This document shows positions 10,284-29,762 of a DNA stretch of 42,926 nt, piece by piece; position 1 is the stretch's first letter, and every line of letters begins with the position of its first letter. This DNA is from Bacteroidia bacterium (GTDB lineage Bacteria > Bacteroidota > Bacteroidia > SpSt-205). The notes beneath the pieces are model-generated. The model had not been told where the DNA came from, made no database searches, and was given only the letters and a program-made list of their open reading frames with translations. The stretch is from assembly GCA_026414975.1 (NCBI GenBank), contig JAOAHZ010000013.1, positions 1 to 42,926 of the forward strand. The letters are read 5' to 3'. A program made the position numbers and the translations under genes.

Positions 10284-12284
10284 TCAACCCAAATACCGAA
10301 TGATGATTAGGGTTCCATCATCCCCTAAAGAAGGGCCGCCAACAAACTCTTGGACAGCCTTCGTGATAGCTTGACTGATTTCCCGCGGGGTAGTATGAAC
10401 CGTGGCTTTGAAGAGAGACAATAGCCGTTCAATCCCGAACATGTCTCCATCTAACTTACTGGCCTCCGAAAAGCCGTCGCTAAACAGCATAAAGAGGCTA
10501 CCTGGTACGAGTTTGCCCCGCTCAGGTATCAGAATCCGACTGATAATCTGAGACGAAGCGTTTCCCAACACGATGCCGGGTGGGCGGAGTATATCTACGG
10601 CGTCGGTGAGGGGATTCCAGTACAATATTTCGGGCGTTCCGGCTCGAATCAGTGTATATTCTTGGTGGGCGAAATCAAATCGTAGAAGGGTAGCGGCAAG
10701 GAAGTTGTTTTTATGGAACACACGTTTGAGAGCATCATTTAGACGAAAGATAAGCTCTTCGGGTGGGAGTTTTTGGAGCCAGAGGGTATTGAGAGCTGCG
10801 CGAGCTTGAGCCATTTGATAGGCTGCGGCGATCCCACTGCCAGCGCTGTCGGAGAGCCAAAAATCCACTGTATCTTCCTCAGGGTACTCGTATATTTGAT
10901 AGTAGTCCCCACCTATGGTGCGATCATACTGTTCAAAATGCACATGAAAGTCTACCCGTTTCAGGATAGGGGGTGGAGGAGGCATGAGAGCCTCTCGGGT
11001 TTCTCGGAGGAAATCGGCTTCCTTCCGCGCTGTGAGTAGCTGTTCCTGATAAGCGCGACGCTCTAAGTTCTCCAAAAACAGAGCTGTTTGTTCTGCAAGC
11101 GTGGTGATGAGTTGGATATCCTTTTCTTCAAATCCATCTGGTTCTTGGCTCAGGGCGGCGATAGAAAGGGTTTGGTTTAGCAAGGCACCTGATAGACGGA
11201 GAAGGGGACGCTGCACGATGACCGCTGACCGATCAGGCAGGTTAGGTTGTTGCTTTTGGAGACTGGGGATGAAGTCTATGAAAGCCTCTGTACCGCTGCG
11301 CTGAAAGATCATTTTGCGAAGGGTCTCGTAGAGGAGTCCGGAGGAAAGGGAGCCTGCCGTGTGATTAGCTTCGGGCGCTGCTCTCAAGATAAGCAGAGTT
11401 TCACCGACTGGGGGCAGTTTTTGCAGAGTTTCTTTAGCTATATCTAGAATCTCTGAAGAAGAGGTGGTACGCTGCTGCTGAGCTAAGAATTCTGTCATAA
11501 GCTCTAGGGTAGCTCCCCCTTCGTTTCTCGAGAAGTGAGCTAATCGCAAGAGAATCGGAACGACTATCCAGCCTCCATGGAGAAATATGAGCGCAATCAG
11601 CAGAGAATAGAGCACTTCCAGCAAGGGGGGACGAGGAGAGAAGAAGAAAGAGACTATTACTTGCCATTCTATGAAGAGTATGAGCAGCGTACCTCCTAAT
11701 AGAAGGAGAGGTTGGAGCATTTGGCGGCTGGATACCTCTTGCAGCCAGTCGCTGAAGTAAAGAAGCGGCAAAATCCCGACCCACAGTAAGGGTGCAAAGA
11801 GGGCACCAAACTTGGGGCTCACTAGGCGCAGGCTCAAGACGAGGGTGATTAGTCCAAAGTATAACTTCACTACGAGGGGCTTGGGAGGGCGCATGCGAAC
11901 CCCAACTAAATGTCCCGCTAAGGCCACATGACCGGCTGCTTGACAAACCATACCGATTTCCATGAGGGCAGCAACCAGTGCGTAAAAGCGTTCGGCCTCT
12001 GGCGAAACAAGTAAGGAAATAAGCCCCCAAAAGAACAAATGGCTAATCCCTAAAACACTGAGTAGAGCGTTCCATCTGAGAAGTCGTTCAGGCGTACGCC
12101 ATCGTCGAGAGATTTGGGAGCCAATCACCAGGTAGAGTCCGGCCGTGAGAGAAATAAATCCCAGCGTGCCTGCATAAGCGGCTAAAGGACTGTGAGGCAA
12201 AAAGTATCGCAGCCAGCCATACAATATAGCTCCAGCAGCTCCAAAGGCACCGAGAGCCGGTCCTAAGGAACGAGGAGGCTTCAC
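10284..12284 (-). CDS. Membrane PP2C (SpoIIE/RsbU-type) serine phosphatase with N-terminal multi-helix and GAF-like domains
   Basis: A 666-residue protein. The first ~250 residues contain about seven or eight hydrophobic helices, then a GAF-like region (about 270-400), a short helical linker with a proline run (MPPPPPILKR), and a PP2C domain from about 430 to the end. PP2C motifs are present: GGDYYQ, DSAGSGIAAA (usual DVSGxGxxAA), LFMLFSDGFSEA and the final GDDGTLIIIRYLG, so metal-binding aspartates look intact. It should dephosphorylate the STAS protein encoded just downstream, in response to a signal sensed by the membrane or GAF part. The start is GTG, overlapping the guaB stop as GTGA. 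Confidence 0.88.
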   Translation of the reverse strand: MKPPRSLGPALGAFGAAGAILYGWLRYFLPHSPLAAYAGTLGFISLTAGLYLVIGSQISRRWRTPERLLRWNALLSVLGISHLFFWGLISLLVSPEAERFYALVAALMEIGMVCQAAGHVALAGHLVGVRMRPPKPLVVKLYFGLITLVLSLRLVSPKFGALFAPLLWVGILPLLYFSDWLQEVSSRQMLQPLLLLGGTLLILFIEWQVIVSFFFSPRPPLLEVLYSLLIALIFLHGGWIVVPILLRLAHFSRNEGGATLELMTEFLAQQQRTTSSSEILDIAKETLQKLPPVGETLLILRAAPEANHTAGSLSSGLLYETLRKMIFQRSGTEAFIDFIPSLQKQQPNLPDRSAVIVQRPLLRLSGALLNQTLSIAALSQEPDGFEEKDIQLITTLAEQTALFLENLERRAYQEQLLTARKEADFLRETREALMPPPPPILKRVDFHVHFEQYDRTIGGDYYQIYEYPEEDTVDFWLSDSAGSGIAAAYQMAQARAALNTLWLQKLPPEELIFRLNDALKRVFHKNNFLAATLLRFDFAHQEYTLIRAGTPEILYWNPLTDAVDILRPPGIVLGNASSQIISRILIPERGKLVPGSLFMLFSDGFSEASKLDGDMFGIERLLSLFKATVHTTPREISQAITKAVQEFVGGPSLGDDGTLIIIRYLG

Positions 12285-13738
12285 CGAACGGAATAGTTAG
12301 GAGCCTCCCGTATGATTTCTAAACTATGGGGGTGGCTTTCGGCGACACTGGCGGCGCTGATGCGGATAAAGCGGGCTTGTCGCAGCTCTTCTAAGTTAGA
12401 AGCTCCACAATAACCCATCCCCGCTTTGAGTCCGCCGACAAGTTGATAGAGCACTTCTGCGGCTGTTCCTCTATAGGGTACTCGACCGACTACCCCTTCA
12501 GGTACAAGCTTACTCAGAGGGCGTTTAGCCTGTCCATATCGGTCTGCGCTCCCGGCCTGCATTGCTTCTAGCGACCCCATTCCCCGATAGACCTTGAACT
12601 TGCGCCCTTCATACAGGATGGTCTCACCTGGGCTTTCCTCGGTACCAGCTAATAGGTTGCCTATCATAACTGCGTCAGCCCCAGCGGCCAGGGCTTTCGT
12701 GATATCTCCGCTGTACCGAATTCCCCCATCAGCGATTAGACCTATTCCTGCTGGTCGCGTAACCTCGCTAACGGCCATGATGGCTGAGAGTTGAGGCATA
12801 CCTACGCCTGTTACGACACGAGTGGTACAAATGCTTCCTGGGCCGATTCCCACCTTGACGGCATCGGCTCCTGCTTCTATGAGGGCTTCAGCTGCTTCGG
12901 GGGTAGCGATGTTTCCCGCTGCTATAGGCAGAGAGGGATACCGGTCTCGGAGCTTGCGCAAGGTCTCAATCACGGCTCGACTATGCCCATGAGCGGTGTC
13001 AATCACCAGCAAATCCACGCCCGCTTGTACCAGAAGCTCAGCTCGCTTGAGGGCCTCTTCACCTACTCCAATGGCGGCTCCTACCCGCAAGCGACCCAAA
13101 GTGTCTTTGCATGCGTTCGGGTAAGTACGCTTTCGCAAAATGTCTTTGTACGTTATGAGCCCCACCAGTTTGCCTTCACTATTTACTAAGGGGAGCTTTT
13201 CAATCCGGTGCTTGCGGAGGATAGCTTCGGCTTCGTCTAAGGTAGTATCCTCGGGCGCCGTAACGAGCGGGGCGGGCGTCATGTAAGTAGAGACTGGTGT
13301 GTCATCCGGTACAGTAAAGCGAATGTCCCGATTGGTCAAGATGCCTAAAAGGCGCCGCTCTCGGTCCACGATGGGGATGCCCCCGATGCGATGTTCAGAC
13401 ATAAGCTGAAAAGCCTCTCGCACAGGAGCATGAGGAGGTAGCGTAATCGGATCCACGATTAATCCGCTTTCGTATCGTTTAACTCGGCGTACCTGTTCGG
13501 CTTGTTCCTGGGGTGAGAGATTTTTATGCAGGATACCCAGTCCGCCCTCGCTTGCTACGGCTATCGCCATCTGGTATTCGGTAACGGTATCCATCGCTGC
13601 ACTTAGGATGGGGATATTGAGAGGCAGGGTTGGAGTTAGATAAGTCTTCACATCGGCCGCCTCTGGGAGTATCTCCGAATAAGCTGGCACTAACAAGACA
13701 TCATCGTAAGTAAGTGCCAGCGGAATTTCTCGTGCCAT
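12281..13738 (-). CDS. guaB: IMP dehydrogenase
   Basis: A 485-residue enzyme oxidising IMP to XMP, the committed step of GTP synthesis. The barrel is split by a CBS pair (about residues 95-205: [20 protein letters not shown] and [19 protein letters not shown]). The catalytic loop [13 protein letters not shown] carries the nucleophilic cysteine, and the flap region reads [10 protein letters not shown]. The first ATG (13738) is preferred over an upstream TTG because TACCTTTG ends only three bases before it. It shares a 30-bp spacer with divergent nuoI and is followed by the phosphatase with a GTGA overlap, making it the first gene of the signalling operon. Confidence 0.97.
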
Positions 13739-13741
13739 AGA

Positions 13742-13749
13742 CAAAGGTA
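13742..13749 (-). promoter_or_regulatory. TACCTTTG -7 box of guaB
   Basis: Exact match ending three bases before the guaB ATG. It is back to back with the nuoI box at 13756-13763, separated by 6 bp. Confidence 0.75.
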
Positions 13750-13755
13750 AGAAAG

Positions 13756-13763
13756 TATCTTTG
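13756..13763 (+). promoter_or_regulatory. TATCTTTG -7 box of nuoI
   Basis: Exact match followed by GAGGA and the ATG at 13769. The GAGGA looks like a Shine-Dalgarno core but abuts the start codon, too close to work as one, so the transcript is probably leaderless. Confidence 0.72.
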
Positions 13764-23886: not shown

Positions 23887-25065
23887 TTATGGGCTGCGAA
23901 TAAACTTCCAGATAGCTTTCCAACTTAGCTTCTGTCCGTAGAGAAGCAGGGCATGCCGATAGAGGCGTGCAGCCATAAAGCGGGCAGCCCAGACCGAACC
24001 CCACAAAATCACCGCTGATAGGATTCTTTCCCCCCATCCCACCGTCCCTTCCACCAATCGCAGGGGCATGGCTAAGGGGGAGGTCAGAGGGAAGTGGCTC
24101 AGAAATAAGCTGAAGGGATCGCCCGACTGCAAATTGGAGATGCTGACGAGAATAAAGCTAAGAATAAGAGGCCAATGCAGAGATTGGGCAAAGCTAGACA
24201 GCTCGGTTACAGAGTCTGAAGAGGCGCCAGCCGCTGCGTATAACAACGTATAGAGCAAAATACCTCCAGCTACATATACGGCTATCCACCCCCAAGGCAG
24301 CTTAGCTATAGGTAACAAAGGCGGCTTGATAGGTAGCAGCCCTATAATACCCGCTGCAAACCCCAACCAAATCCCTCCTTGAAGGAGTGCAAGAGCTACG
24401 CCAGCCAAAAGCTTTCCTGTCAAAAGCTCAGTGGGAGAGATATAAATCAGCAGATACTCTGCTAATCGGTTTGTTTTTTCCTCTAAGACGCTCAGGAGTA
24501 CCTGCCACCCGGTGCTTAGGATGATGATCAACAGGATAAATCGCAAGGCTGCACTTAGCAAGCTAACCAGGCCGGCTGATCGGGACACTTGACCTTTTTC
24601 AGATAGAATGAAAGTTCGCAGCGAAGGGGGGGTAAGTAGAGTAGCGGTTTGTTCAGCGGTCAGCCCTGCCTCTGCAAGCTTCTTCCTGAGGATGGCGTCG
24701 TGTAGGAGCTGCTCTAAGTTTTCTAAATCAGAAGCTGGAAAGGATTCTCGGGAGTAGAGTTCTGCGACGGGAGTGCCTGCCCTGTAAGTCAAGAGACCTT
24801 GTCCTTTCTGCAAATGGGCTTTTAGGGAGTCTAAAGGCAGAGGAGGAGCTACGACAAACTGAAAGCGGCTTGTGTTGGATAGAGATAGGCTTTCCGCTTC
24901 ACCTGCCAAATAGATTTGAGTAGGAGTGCGCGTTTTCCGAAGTAATGCGATGATGACCCCTACAATGATCATCAAGAGGGGCAGACTAAGGACTCCTATC
25001 CAGAATCGCCAGTCCCTTAGCCTAATTAGCAGTTCCCGCATGAAGACGAGACCGATAGCTCTCAT
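23887..25065 (-). CDS. ABC-2 type exporter permease (NatB-like)
   Basis: A 392-residue membrane protein. One N-terminal helix (about residues 19-42) is followed by a large extracytoplasmic domain (about 45-165), then about five helices from 168 to 375. The segment VLEEKTNRLAEYLLIYISP matches the coupling motif of NatB/YhaP-type ABC-2 permeases. It works with the ATPase encoded immediately upstream (ATGA overlap). Relatives export Na+ or are of unknown substrate; I cannot decide here. Confidence 0.86.
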   Translation of the reverse strand: MRAIGLVFMRELLIRLRDWRFWIGVLSLPLLMIIVGVIIALLRKTRTPTQIYLAGEAESLSLSNTSRFQFVVAPPLPLDSLKAHLQKGQGLLTYRAGTPVAELYSRESFPASDLENLEQLLHDAILRKKLAEAGLTAEQTATLLTPPSLRTFILSEKGQVSRSAGLVSLLSAALRFILLIIILSTGWQVLLSVLEEKTNRLAEYLLIYISPTELLTGKLLAGVALALLQGGIWLGFAAGIIGLLPIKPPLLPIAKLPWGWIAVYVAGGILLYTLLYAAAGASSDSVTELSSFAQSLHWPLILSFILVSISNLQSGDPFSLFLSHFPLTSPLAMPLRLVEGTVGWGERILSAVILWGSVWAARFMAARLYRHALLLYGQKLSWKAIWKFIRSP

Positions 25066-25958
25066 GCCTCGCCGACGACTTGGAGGAAGATATCTCGGAT
25101 AGTGGGGAGCTTTTGAGCAAAGAATCGTATTTCGGCTTGGGGAAGCAGAGCTTCTAAGAGCGTTTGTCCCGATAGATTTTCAGATAGAGTGAGGTAGATG
25201 CGGTTCATTTTCACTTCAGCTACTTTGACTCCCTCGGGCAGTTGAATTTGCTCTAAGAGGCGATCTATCTCTATTTCGTAGGTGTGGCTCCAAAAGCGTC
25301 GCCGGATTGCGTCGGTTTCCCCAGCCAGTACGAGGCGTCCTTTATGAATCAGCAGAACATAATCGCACAAGTGATCCACCTGTTCTAAGCGATGGGTAGA
25401 AAGGATAATCAGGGTGTCTTTTTGGGCTTTTTCGCGCAGTAAAGCCTCTATGTCAGTGGAGACGATGGGGTCTAGGCCTGAAAACGGTTCATCCAAGAGA
25501 AGTACCGGTGGATCCCCTTCTAAAGCTAAGACCAGCTGGACTTTTTGCTGCATGCCCTTGGAGAGGCTGCGTGCAGGCCGGTCTATCCAAGGCATCTCTA
25601 ATCGTTTCACCCAGTAGGCGATCTTATCTGAGACGGTAGAGGGACTCATGCCTCTGAGTCTCAGGAGATAGAAGAGTTGACTGCGGGCTGTCATCTTAGG
25701 GTATAATCCTCGTTCTTCGGGCATGTAGCCGAAGCGTAGGCGCATCGTCTTGGATAAGGGTTGTCCTTTGTACCAAATCTCCCCAGATTCAGGTGAGATT
25801 ATACCCATGATGATTCGCAGTAGGGTAGTTTTTCCAGAGCCGTTTGGACCTAAAAGACCCACGATACCTTTCGAGGGCAGCTCAGCTGAGACGCCTTGAA
25901 GAGCATGTACCCTCCCACTGAGGGAGGGAAAGCTGTGGTAGATTTCTCGAAGCTCCAC
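25062..25958 (-). CDS. ABC transporter ATPase (NatA-like)
   Basis: A 298-residue ATPase with Walker A GLLGPNGSGKTTLLR, the signature motif ARSLSKGMQQK, Walker B VLLLDEPFSGLDP, and the H-loop in LIILSTHRLEQVD. The ~75 extra C-terminal residues are typical of ATPases paired with ABC-2 permeases. The start is GTG at 25958, set by the TACCTTTG box four bases upstream; an ATG two bases further upstream is out of frame. It is divergent from the CPBP gene with only 27 bp between start codons. Confidence 0.93.
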   Translation of the reverse strand: MELREIYHSFPSLSGRVHALQGVSAELPSKGIVGLLGPNGSGKTTLLRIIMGIISPESGEIWYKGQPLSKTMRLRFGYMPEERGLYPKMTARSQLFYLLRLRGMSPSTVSDKIAYWVKRLEMPWIDRPARSLSKGMQQKVQLVLALEGDPPVLLLDEPFSGLDPIVSTDIEALLREKAQKDTLIILSTHRLEQVDHLCDYVLLIHKGRLVLAGETDAIRRRFWSHTYEIEIDRLLEQIQLPEGVKVAEVKMNRIYLTLSENLSGQTLLEALLPQAEIRFFAQKLPTIRDIFLQVVGEA

Positions 25959-25962
25959 ATTG

Positions 25963-25970
25963 CAAAGGTA
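25963..25970 (-). promoter_or_regulatory. TACCTTTG -7 box of the ABC exporter operon
   Basis: Exact match ending four bases before GTG 25958. Together with the next box it forms a perfect inverted repeat, CAAAGGTA-gagg-TACCTTTG. Confidence 0.75.
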
Positions 25971-25974
25971 GAGG

Positions 25975-25982
25975 TACCTTTG
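25975..25982 (+). promoter_or_regulatory. TACCTTTG -7 box of the CPBP gene
   Basis: Exact match ending three bases before the ATG at 25986. It decides that start over a longer frame from 25896, which would lie inside the divergent gene. Confidence 0.75.
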
Positions 25983-25985
25983 AAC

Positions 25986-26828
25986 ATGCGGGAGTTTCTG
26001 CGCTTAGCAGCTCTCTTGGGGCTCCTTGGCCTGGCTGTGATCGCTTCGGGCATTCTGCTGAGTAGTTTGGGACTTACACCTGTACCTGTTTCAGATCAAG
26101 GAACGGCTCATCGTACCGCAGGTGGTAACGCTCTCACTTTACTTATTAGCTTCGGCGGAGCGGGCTTGCTATACTTCATGCTGATGGGGCGAGGGGAAAA
26201 CTGGCGTTTATTCAAAGGTTTGGGCGGGGATATGACTATTTATCTTGGTATAGCGGGCTTTATGGCGGGGTTATTCCTGCTTTTGCCTTGGCTGGGATTA
26301 GACGCTGAGAGTTTTGAGTTACCAGCTTCTTTGAAGCGCTGGGAGCGGATTTTGGAGGCTCAAGAAGCTCAGATAGAGACCTTGATGCGTGCTCTTATCC
26401 AGTATGCGAGTTTGGCCTTTCTGCTCCTTACGATGGCGGTAGCGCCAGCCATAGCGGAGGAGCTATTTTTTCGGGGTGCCCTTCAGACGCAGCTCGCCCG
26501 CCTAATGAATCCGCATTTAGCGGTCTGGCTTGCTGCTTTCATATTTAGTGCCATTCATTTTCAAGTGTATGGCTTGGTGCCCCGTTTTATTTTAGGAGCT
26601 GTGATGGGGTATCTCACTCTCTGGACGGGTCGGTTAGCCCCTGCCATGTGGGCTCATTTCCTCAATAACGCTTATGCCACGATTCTGGCTTACCTTGGCA
26701 TGCACTTCTTGGGCCATCCAGAGTGGATAGACTCTACTTATCGACCCCCTTTATGGATAGCCTTATTAGGGGCTGGTATTGCAGGGGGGACTGGCTTTTG
26801 GCTTTACCGTCGTCTCCGTCGTGCTTAG
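25986..26828 (+). CDS. CPBP (CAAX protease/Abi) family intramembrane metalloprotease
   Basis: A 280-residue membrane protein with about eight hydrophobic segments. The family motifs are in order: EELFFRG (E-E-x-x-x-R, near residue 158), FSAIHFQVY (F-x-x-x-H), and the last HFLNNAYA (H-x-x-x-N). These residues bind zinc and catalyse cleavage in the Rce1-type protease group. Bacterial members are linked to bacteriocin immunity, signalling or protein turnover, but no partner is evident. The ATG at 25986 fits a leaderless transcript. The stop overlaps the probable GTG start of cdsA. Confidence 0.88.
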   Translation: MREFLRLAALLGLLGLAVIASGILLSSLGLTPVPVSDQGTAHRTAGGNALTLLISFGGAGLLYFMLMGRGENWRLFKGLGGDMTIYLGIAGFMAGLFLLLPWLGLDAESFELPASLKRWERILEAQEAQIETLMRALIQYASLAFLLLTMAVAPAIAEELFFRGALQTQLARLMNPHLAVWLAAFIFSAIHFQVYGLVPRFILGAVMGYLTLWTGRLAPAMWAHFLNNAYATILAYLGMHFLGHPEWIDSTYRPPLWIALLGAGIAGGTGFWLYRRLRRA

Positions 26829-27582
26829 GCGCATTGGAACGGCTGTCGTAGCTGGGGCCTTACTTCTTTCGTTTTTGTACTGGGCTGGAAAGGTAGGCCT
26901 TCTTATTGCGTGGCTCCTAATAGGCTTACTTTTACTGGATGAGTGGATGCGAGGCGAACATTTATCTCTCCCGCAGCGCATTTTCCTGTCTATTCCCATT
27001 TTGGCTTTATGGGGTAGTCCGTTTCTACCAGAACTGGTCAAGGGAACTGTATTGAGTTTTGTCCTTCTGGCTTTGTGGGGTTTGCGCCAAAGAGAGCCTC
27101 AAACAGTCCATCGCTGGTTTCAGCAGTCTCTATATGGCTTAGTGGGAATGGGGGTTGGATGGGGTTCGGTAGGGTGGTTGCTTTATGAGCCTTATTCATT
27201 TGGGCGTACTCTAGCCTTTTTGTCGCTGGTGTGGATGGCGGATACCGCAGCCTACTTTGGAGGGCGCTGGATGGGACGCAGGCGCATTTTGCCTCAGATT
27301 AGCCCTAACAAAACCGTGGAAGGCTTAGGTATTTCGGTTATAGCTTCGGCGATCTGGGGGCATTTCGCTGTGCCTTGGGTAGGGGGATTGGAAGAAGTAC
27401 CGCCTTTTTTAGTAGGGGGGGGCGTGAGTCTCCTCGCTTTCATAGGGGATGCCTACCAGTCGGTATGGAAAAGGGTTCATCAGCTCAAAGATTCGGGGCG
27501 CCTACTACCTGGGCATGGAGGTATCTGGGATCGGGTAGATTCGCTGATTTGGGTGGCTCCAGCTTGGTATTTTCTCTCATGA
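26821..27582 (+). CDS. cdsA: Phosphatidate cytidylyltransferase (CDP-diglyceride synthase)
   Basis: A 253-residue polytopic membrane enzyme that makes CDP-diacylglycerol from phosphatidate and CTP. The complete family signature is visible: S-x-x-K-R-x4-K-D-x-G-x-x-L-P-G-H-G-G-I-x-D-R-x-D (residues about 213-240). Another conserved piece is ADTAAYFGGRWMGRR, with SPNKTVEG downstream. The frame is open upstream to 26779, but GTG at 26821, overlapping the CPBP stop, is the most natural coupled start. pgpA of the same phospholipid pathway is at 40008-40457. A hairpin with a T run follows directly. Confidence 0.92.
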   Translation: MLRRIGTAVVAGALLLSFLYWAGKVGLLIAWLLIGLLLLDEWMRGEHLSLPQRIFLSIPILALWGSPFLPELVKGTVLSFVLLALWGLRQREPQTVHRWFQQSLYGLVGMGVGWGSVGWLLYEPYSFGRTLAFLSLVWMADTAAYFGGRWMGRRRILPQISPNKTVEGLGISVIASAIWGHFAVPWVGGLEEVPPFLVGGGVSLLAFIGDAYQSVWKRVHQLKDSGRLLPGHGGIWDRVDSLIWVAPAWYFLS

Positions 27583-29728: not shown

Positions 29729-29736
29729 CAAATCTA
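29729..29736 (-). promoter_or_regulatory. TAGATTTG -7 box of the SH3 lipoprotein-der operon
   Basis: Exact TAnnTTTG match ending four bases before GTG 29724; back to back with the box at 29755-29762. Confidence 0.7.
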
Positions 29737-29754
29737 CGAAAAGCATGGGGGCTG

Positions 29755-29762
29755 TATCTTTG
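29755..29762 (+). promoter_or_regulatory. TATCTTTG -7 box of the beta-barrel gene and its operon
   Basis: Exact match ending four bases before ATG 29767, 18 bp from the divergent box. Confidence 0.74.

Follow-up and report, generated by a model that had tools for sequence, protein, structure and literature searches.

Promoters of the sigma-ABfr type in Bacteroidota carry a -7 box (TAnnTTTG) and a -33 element (TTTG). In Flavobacterium johnsoniae, the box lies at -12 to -5, the start site lies 4–5 nt beyond it, and the -33 element is not evident (PMC6847099). Leaders shorter than 10 nt occur in 3.7% of the mRNAs of Bacteroides thetaiotaomicron, and 5.5% of the mRNAs of Flavobacterium psychrophilum are leaderless. 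A limited literature collection contained no paper on leaderless genes in thermophilic Bacteroidota. In the bidirectional promoters of E. coli, both directions share one symmetrical -10 element, and the start sites commonly lie 10, 18 or 23 bp from each other; in those tested, the two directions do not compete at basal activity and compete clearly when one direction is strengthened (PMC12825309).

The window, that is, the whole stretch of 42,926 nt that was analysed, came from the genome (G000) of an uncultivated Bacteroidia genus. KatS3mg025 and KatS3mg026, both MAGs from hot springs, are among its named relatives. A second genome, G005, was compared with G000. Genomes were sampled by 20-kb stretches and pattern searches, and the positional sample was 400 kb of G000.

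Two divergent genes in the window, an ABC ATPase gene starting at GTG 25958 and a CPBP protease gene starting at ATG 25986, are separated by a spacer of 27 bp. The spacer contains at 25963–25982 the sequence CAAAGGTAGAGGTACCTTTG, an inverted repeat without mismatch whose 8-bp arms flank a 4-bp centre (CAAAGGTA-gagg-TACCTTTG), and both the repeat and the divergent starts agree with what the sequence-only reading had described. Dinucleotide shuffles would give 0.01 matches to the inverted-repeat pattern at up to two mismatches; the window has 1. Each half was an exact match to TAnnTTTG, the Bacteroidota -7 box, and the earlier proposal of one such box per strand was supported; both boxes are conserved in relatives. 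The box of the ABC ATPase gene (TACCTTTG, 25963..25970, minus strand) is separated by 4 nt after its final G from GTG 25958; the box of the CPBP protease gene (TACCTTTG, 25975..25982, plus strand) is separated by 3 nt after its final G from ATG 25986. The gap between the boxes (25971..25974, no strand) is 4 bp here, and its length varies across orthologous spacers.

The ABC transporter ATPase gene (25062..25958, minus strand; PF00005, E 6e-29) encodes a DrrA-like C-terminal domain and is followed by an ABC-2 permease gene (23887–25065) that overlaps its end. The gene for the CPBP/Rce1-like intramembrane protease (25986..26828, plus strand; PF02517, E 4e-20) is overlapped at its end by a cytidylyltransferase-family (CdsA-like) gene (26821–27582). 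The start codons were supported by orthologues: in most species the CPBP protein opens with MRE-LRLA or a similar sequence, and the ABC start lies 4–6 nt past its own box, which supports the GTG call. The CPBP box-to-ATG distance of 3 nt is 1 below the modal 4 and is kept in most relatives; start-site choice at this gene could be imprecise because of it.

With a probability of about 0.85, the spacer holds two independent, probably leaderless -7-box promoters placed back to back. Each strand would carry one core promoter for the primary sigma factor, pared down to its -7 box. The predicted start sites are 25958 on the minus strand and about 25986 on the plus strand, at or within 1–2 bases of the start codons; both mRNAs, that of the ABC gene from its GTG, are thus predicted to be leaderless, so that a divergent pair would fit in 27 bp. 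Upstream, at -18, -28 and -33, the DNA of each promoter would overlie the other gene's box and first codons, and RNA polymerase would bind in one orientation at a time. Judged from this geometry, with 28 bp between the predicted start sites, opposing polymerases very likely exclude each other sterically, in line with the earlier statement that two of them could not melt the DNA at the same time. At ordinary promoter strength, exclusion would probably have little regulatory consequence, while strong firing of one promoter would lower the output of the other. The predicted leaderlessness of both mRNAs, about which the sequence-only reading said nothing, is the more general finding.

Box-to-start distances were taken from a simple ORF scan and not from curated starts. 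In the 400 kb of G000, the distance from TAnnTTTG to an open start codon showed a sharp peak, with 40 sites at 4 nt and 14 at 5 nt, while reversed or altered control motifs were flat in the same test (0–4 sites per distance). The G005 sample gave a similar peak. TAnnTTTG-N4-ATG and TAnnTTTG-N14-ATG stood at 192:20 in the whole G000 genome and at approximately 2023:207, about 10:1, over the 12 family members, a genome-wide excess of boxes placed with their predicted +1 on the start codon. The ratio was near 1–2:1 in most other members of the class, and family f41 was intermediate (about 3.5:1 in G051). Since the box-to-start distance in F. johnsoniae is 4–5 nt (PMC6847099), a 4-nt gap predicts a leaderless mRNA; given this roughly tenfold N4 excess, mRNAs without a leader are probably frequent in the family, unlike in Bacteroides and Flavobacterium. 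The TTG within TAnnTTTG can be taken as a start by mechanical ORF callers, as in the ORF 12281–13744 (at position 13744 of the window), and the starts annotated in this lineage may hence extend into the promoter box.

Both -33 regions had been placed inside the opposite gene. This held as geometry, but no -33 motif was detectable at the locus or in the lineage: TTG or TTTG at -33 was absent on both strands of the locus (plus, AAGCTCCA; minus, ACTCCCGC), and the aligned upstream DNA of 85 promoters of G000 and 95 of G005 contained no -33 motif. The same alignments showed the box, with C favoured at its variable positions, and a weak rise in A+T about 6 bp upstream of it (-18 position). A -33 element is not a firm requirement, as it is not evident in F. 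johnsoniae either (PMC6847099). Searched with sigma-70 region 3, the genome yielded a single sigma factor, in which regions 1.2, 2, 3 and 4 were present; loss of region 4 as the explanation of the missing -33 element was rejected, region 4 being intact.

The ABC and CPBP genes were divergent in seven species including this one, and both boxes were kept in six of the seven; in G004, the ABC-side box was degenerate. Among the six, the gap was 4 bp in G000 and G002, 6 bp in G009, 1 bp in G005, 12 bp in G007 and 11 bp in G011, and the ABC box lay 4–6 nt before the ABC start in every one. Three of the six have a perfect mirror (G000, G009 and G007) and three a broken one (G002, G005 and G011); G002 keeps the 4-bp gap with halves that are not complementary. 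The comparison of the spacer in related genomes, which the sequence-only reading had proposed, thus upheld the two boxes but neither a constant gap nor the mirror. The CPBP box was kept in all 10 other family genomes that have the gene. In four of these (G001, G003, G008 and G010), CPBP has no adjoining ABC gene and a single box lies 3–5 nt before its start; in G001, the separated ABC gene retains its own box. Because single boxes persist where the two genes stand apart, the boxes belong to the genes and not to the palindrome, and on this comparative evidence the spacer is composed of two modular putative promoters, one per gene.

The same arrangement was found at many other places. The pattern CAAANNTA-N0-14-TANNTTTG had 27 sites in G000 and 0 in the reversed-pattern control, and divergent box pairs with gaps of 15–45 bp numbered 36 against 1. 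In the sampled DNA of G000 and G005 together, 33 divergent and 5 convergent pairs had gaps of 0–45 bp. An open start codon lay 3–8 nt after both boxes in 16 of the 27 tight pairs and after one box in 9. No preferred gap or helical phase was evident among 57 tight pairs of two genomes, the gaps being spread over 1–14 bp. A second tight pair of the window (13742–13763, gap 6) lies between guaB (IMP dehydrogenase, ATG 13738) and a 4Fe-4S protein gene (ATG 13769), and wider divergent pairs at 1005–1041 and 29729–29762 have gaps of 21 and 18 bp with boxes 4 nt before the starts. The compact back-to-back layout of these putative promoters recurs throughout this uncultivated hot-spring Bacteroidia family.

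Pair spacing was also compared between species. Of 21 divergent box pairs common to G000 and G005, 10 were tight in both, 7 were wide in both and 4 were tight only in G000 (2 vs 31, 7 vs 23, 9 vs 21 and 14 vs 27 bp); this comparison left out one wide site per genome, and one further site was not placeable.

Back-to-back boxes exceeded the reversed control in other Bacteroidia families as well: 64:13 and 69:8 in f41 (G051 and G090), 59:19 in f49 (G059), and 35:7 and 41:6 in f34 (G044 and G084). The excess of TAnnTTTG-N4-ATG was present in f41, weak in f49 and absent in f34. The excess of back-to-back boxes in these families suggests separate origins of the tight layout. Overlapping boxes that share TA (CAAANNTANNTTTG) were counted 38 times against 12 in the control in 11 genomes (G000–G010), and may possibly be shared-element bidirectional promoters.

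The perfect palindrome follows from both boxes matching one consensus, roughly TAYCTTTG. The two variable bases are most often CC, as in 26% and 46% of the leaderless boxes of two genomes. Of the 27 tight pairs of G000, 7 had identical halves, whereas independent draws would give 3.7–5.2; this is no clear excess (p 0.07–0.26), and the perfect mirror was rejected as significant. As far as the motif counts indicate, the symmetry needs no cause beyond two draws from one consensus and is mostly coincidence. A palindromic operator, at which a dimeric regulator would control both genes, could account for the perfect 8-bp arms and 4-bp centre, but the variation in the arms follows the promoter consensus and not symmetry. 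The range of gaps in the orthologues, the three broken mirrors, the non-complementary halves in G002 at an unchanged gap, the lone halves persisting after gene separation and the spread of gaps at the 57 tight sites all stand against it. The operator was rejected as hardly credible, fixed spacing and conserved symmetry both being absent.

The sequence-only reading had offered a mutually exclusive switch or a truly bidirectional promoter. In a switch, occupancy by polymerase in one direction would shut off the other, giving alternative ABC exporter and protease states. The predicted start sites are close enough for overlapping footprints, the promoters could be strong as both boxes match the consensus, tight spacing is kept in six species, and E. 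coli bidirectional promoters do compete once one direction is strengthened (PMC12825309). Those tested did not compete at basal activity, however (PMC12825309), and competition by itself gives no memory. The gap ranges over 1–12 bp among species here, and at another pair it is 2 bp in one species and 31 bp in the other; the four pairs that are tight in G000 are wide in G005. The spacing is inherited yet drifts, which speaks against an obligatory switch. The same layout serves the housekeeping gene guaB and some 27 other pairs, and CPBP lacks an ABC neighbour in four relatives. A regulatory switch at this spacer is possible but unsupported, and we consider it improbable. An equally improbable reading is that of one shared promoter of the E. 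coli kind, with a symmetrical element read both ways. The proximity of the divergent start sites and the occurrence of the overlapping form (CAAANNTANNTTTG) in the genus would fit it, but the boxes at the locus are separate, 4 bp apart and non-overlapping, TAnnTTTG is not self-complementary, and each box is kept alone elsewhere. These features point to two separate boxes instead.

Judging by its box positions, the family appears to be an exception to the leadered transcriptomes of Bacteroidota. The broader interest lies in a leaderless architecture that we infer to be family-wide, in a phylum with few leaderless mRNAs in its published transcriptomes. In such a family one could study the adaptation to leaderless mRNAs of ribosomes that make no use of Shine-Dalgarno sequences, and the distance below which two divergent promoters interfere. 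For a test of interference, about 27 natural pairs (gaps of 1–14 bp, some of them wider in a sister species) are a ready-made series. It is conceivable, though we hold it doubtful, that the whole family has moved to widespread leaderless genes and promoters of little more than a -7 box, which together would let it tolerate dozens of overlapping divergent core promoters, with polymerase competition coupling the expression of neighbours.

In comparison with known systems, the locus resembles the bidirectional promoters that Warman, Grainger and colleagues studied in E. coli and other prokaryotes in that its predicted divergent start sites are too close for two polymerases; it differs in having two separate boxes, a variable gap and predicted start sites about 28 bp apart. 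The leaderless genes surveyed by Zheng in 2011 likewise have a -10-like promoter box placed about 12 bp ahead of the start codon throughout the genome, as in Actinobacteria and Deinococcus-Thermus (PMC3160421). In that survey, 1 of 37 Bacteroidetes/Chlorobi genomes was of this kind (2.4% of genes), with a TANNNT and not a TAnnTTTG box (PMC3160421). With sigma-ABfr promoters the family shares the box and, by prediction, its role and the 4–5 nt to the start site; the lack of a clear -33 element is as in F. johnsoniae (PMC6847099), and the A+T rise matches the -18 motif. Published Bacteroidota mRNAs are mostly leadered, unlike the mRNAs predicted here, and what sets this family apart from other sigma-ABfr promoters is a box that favours C at its variable positions and stands directly before start codons family-wide.
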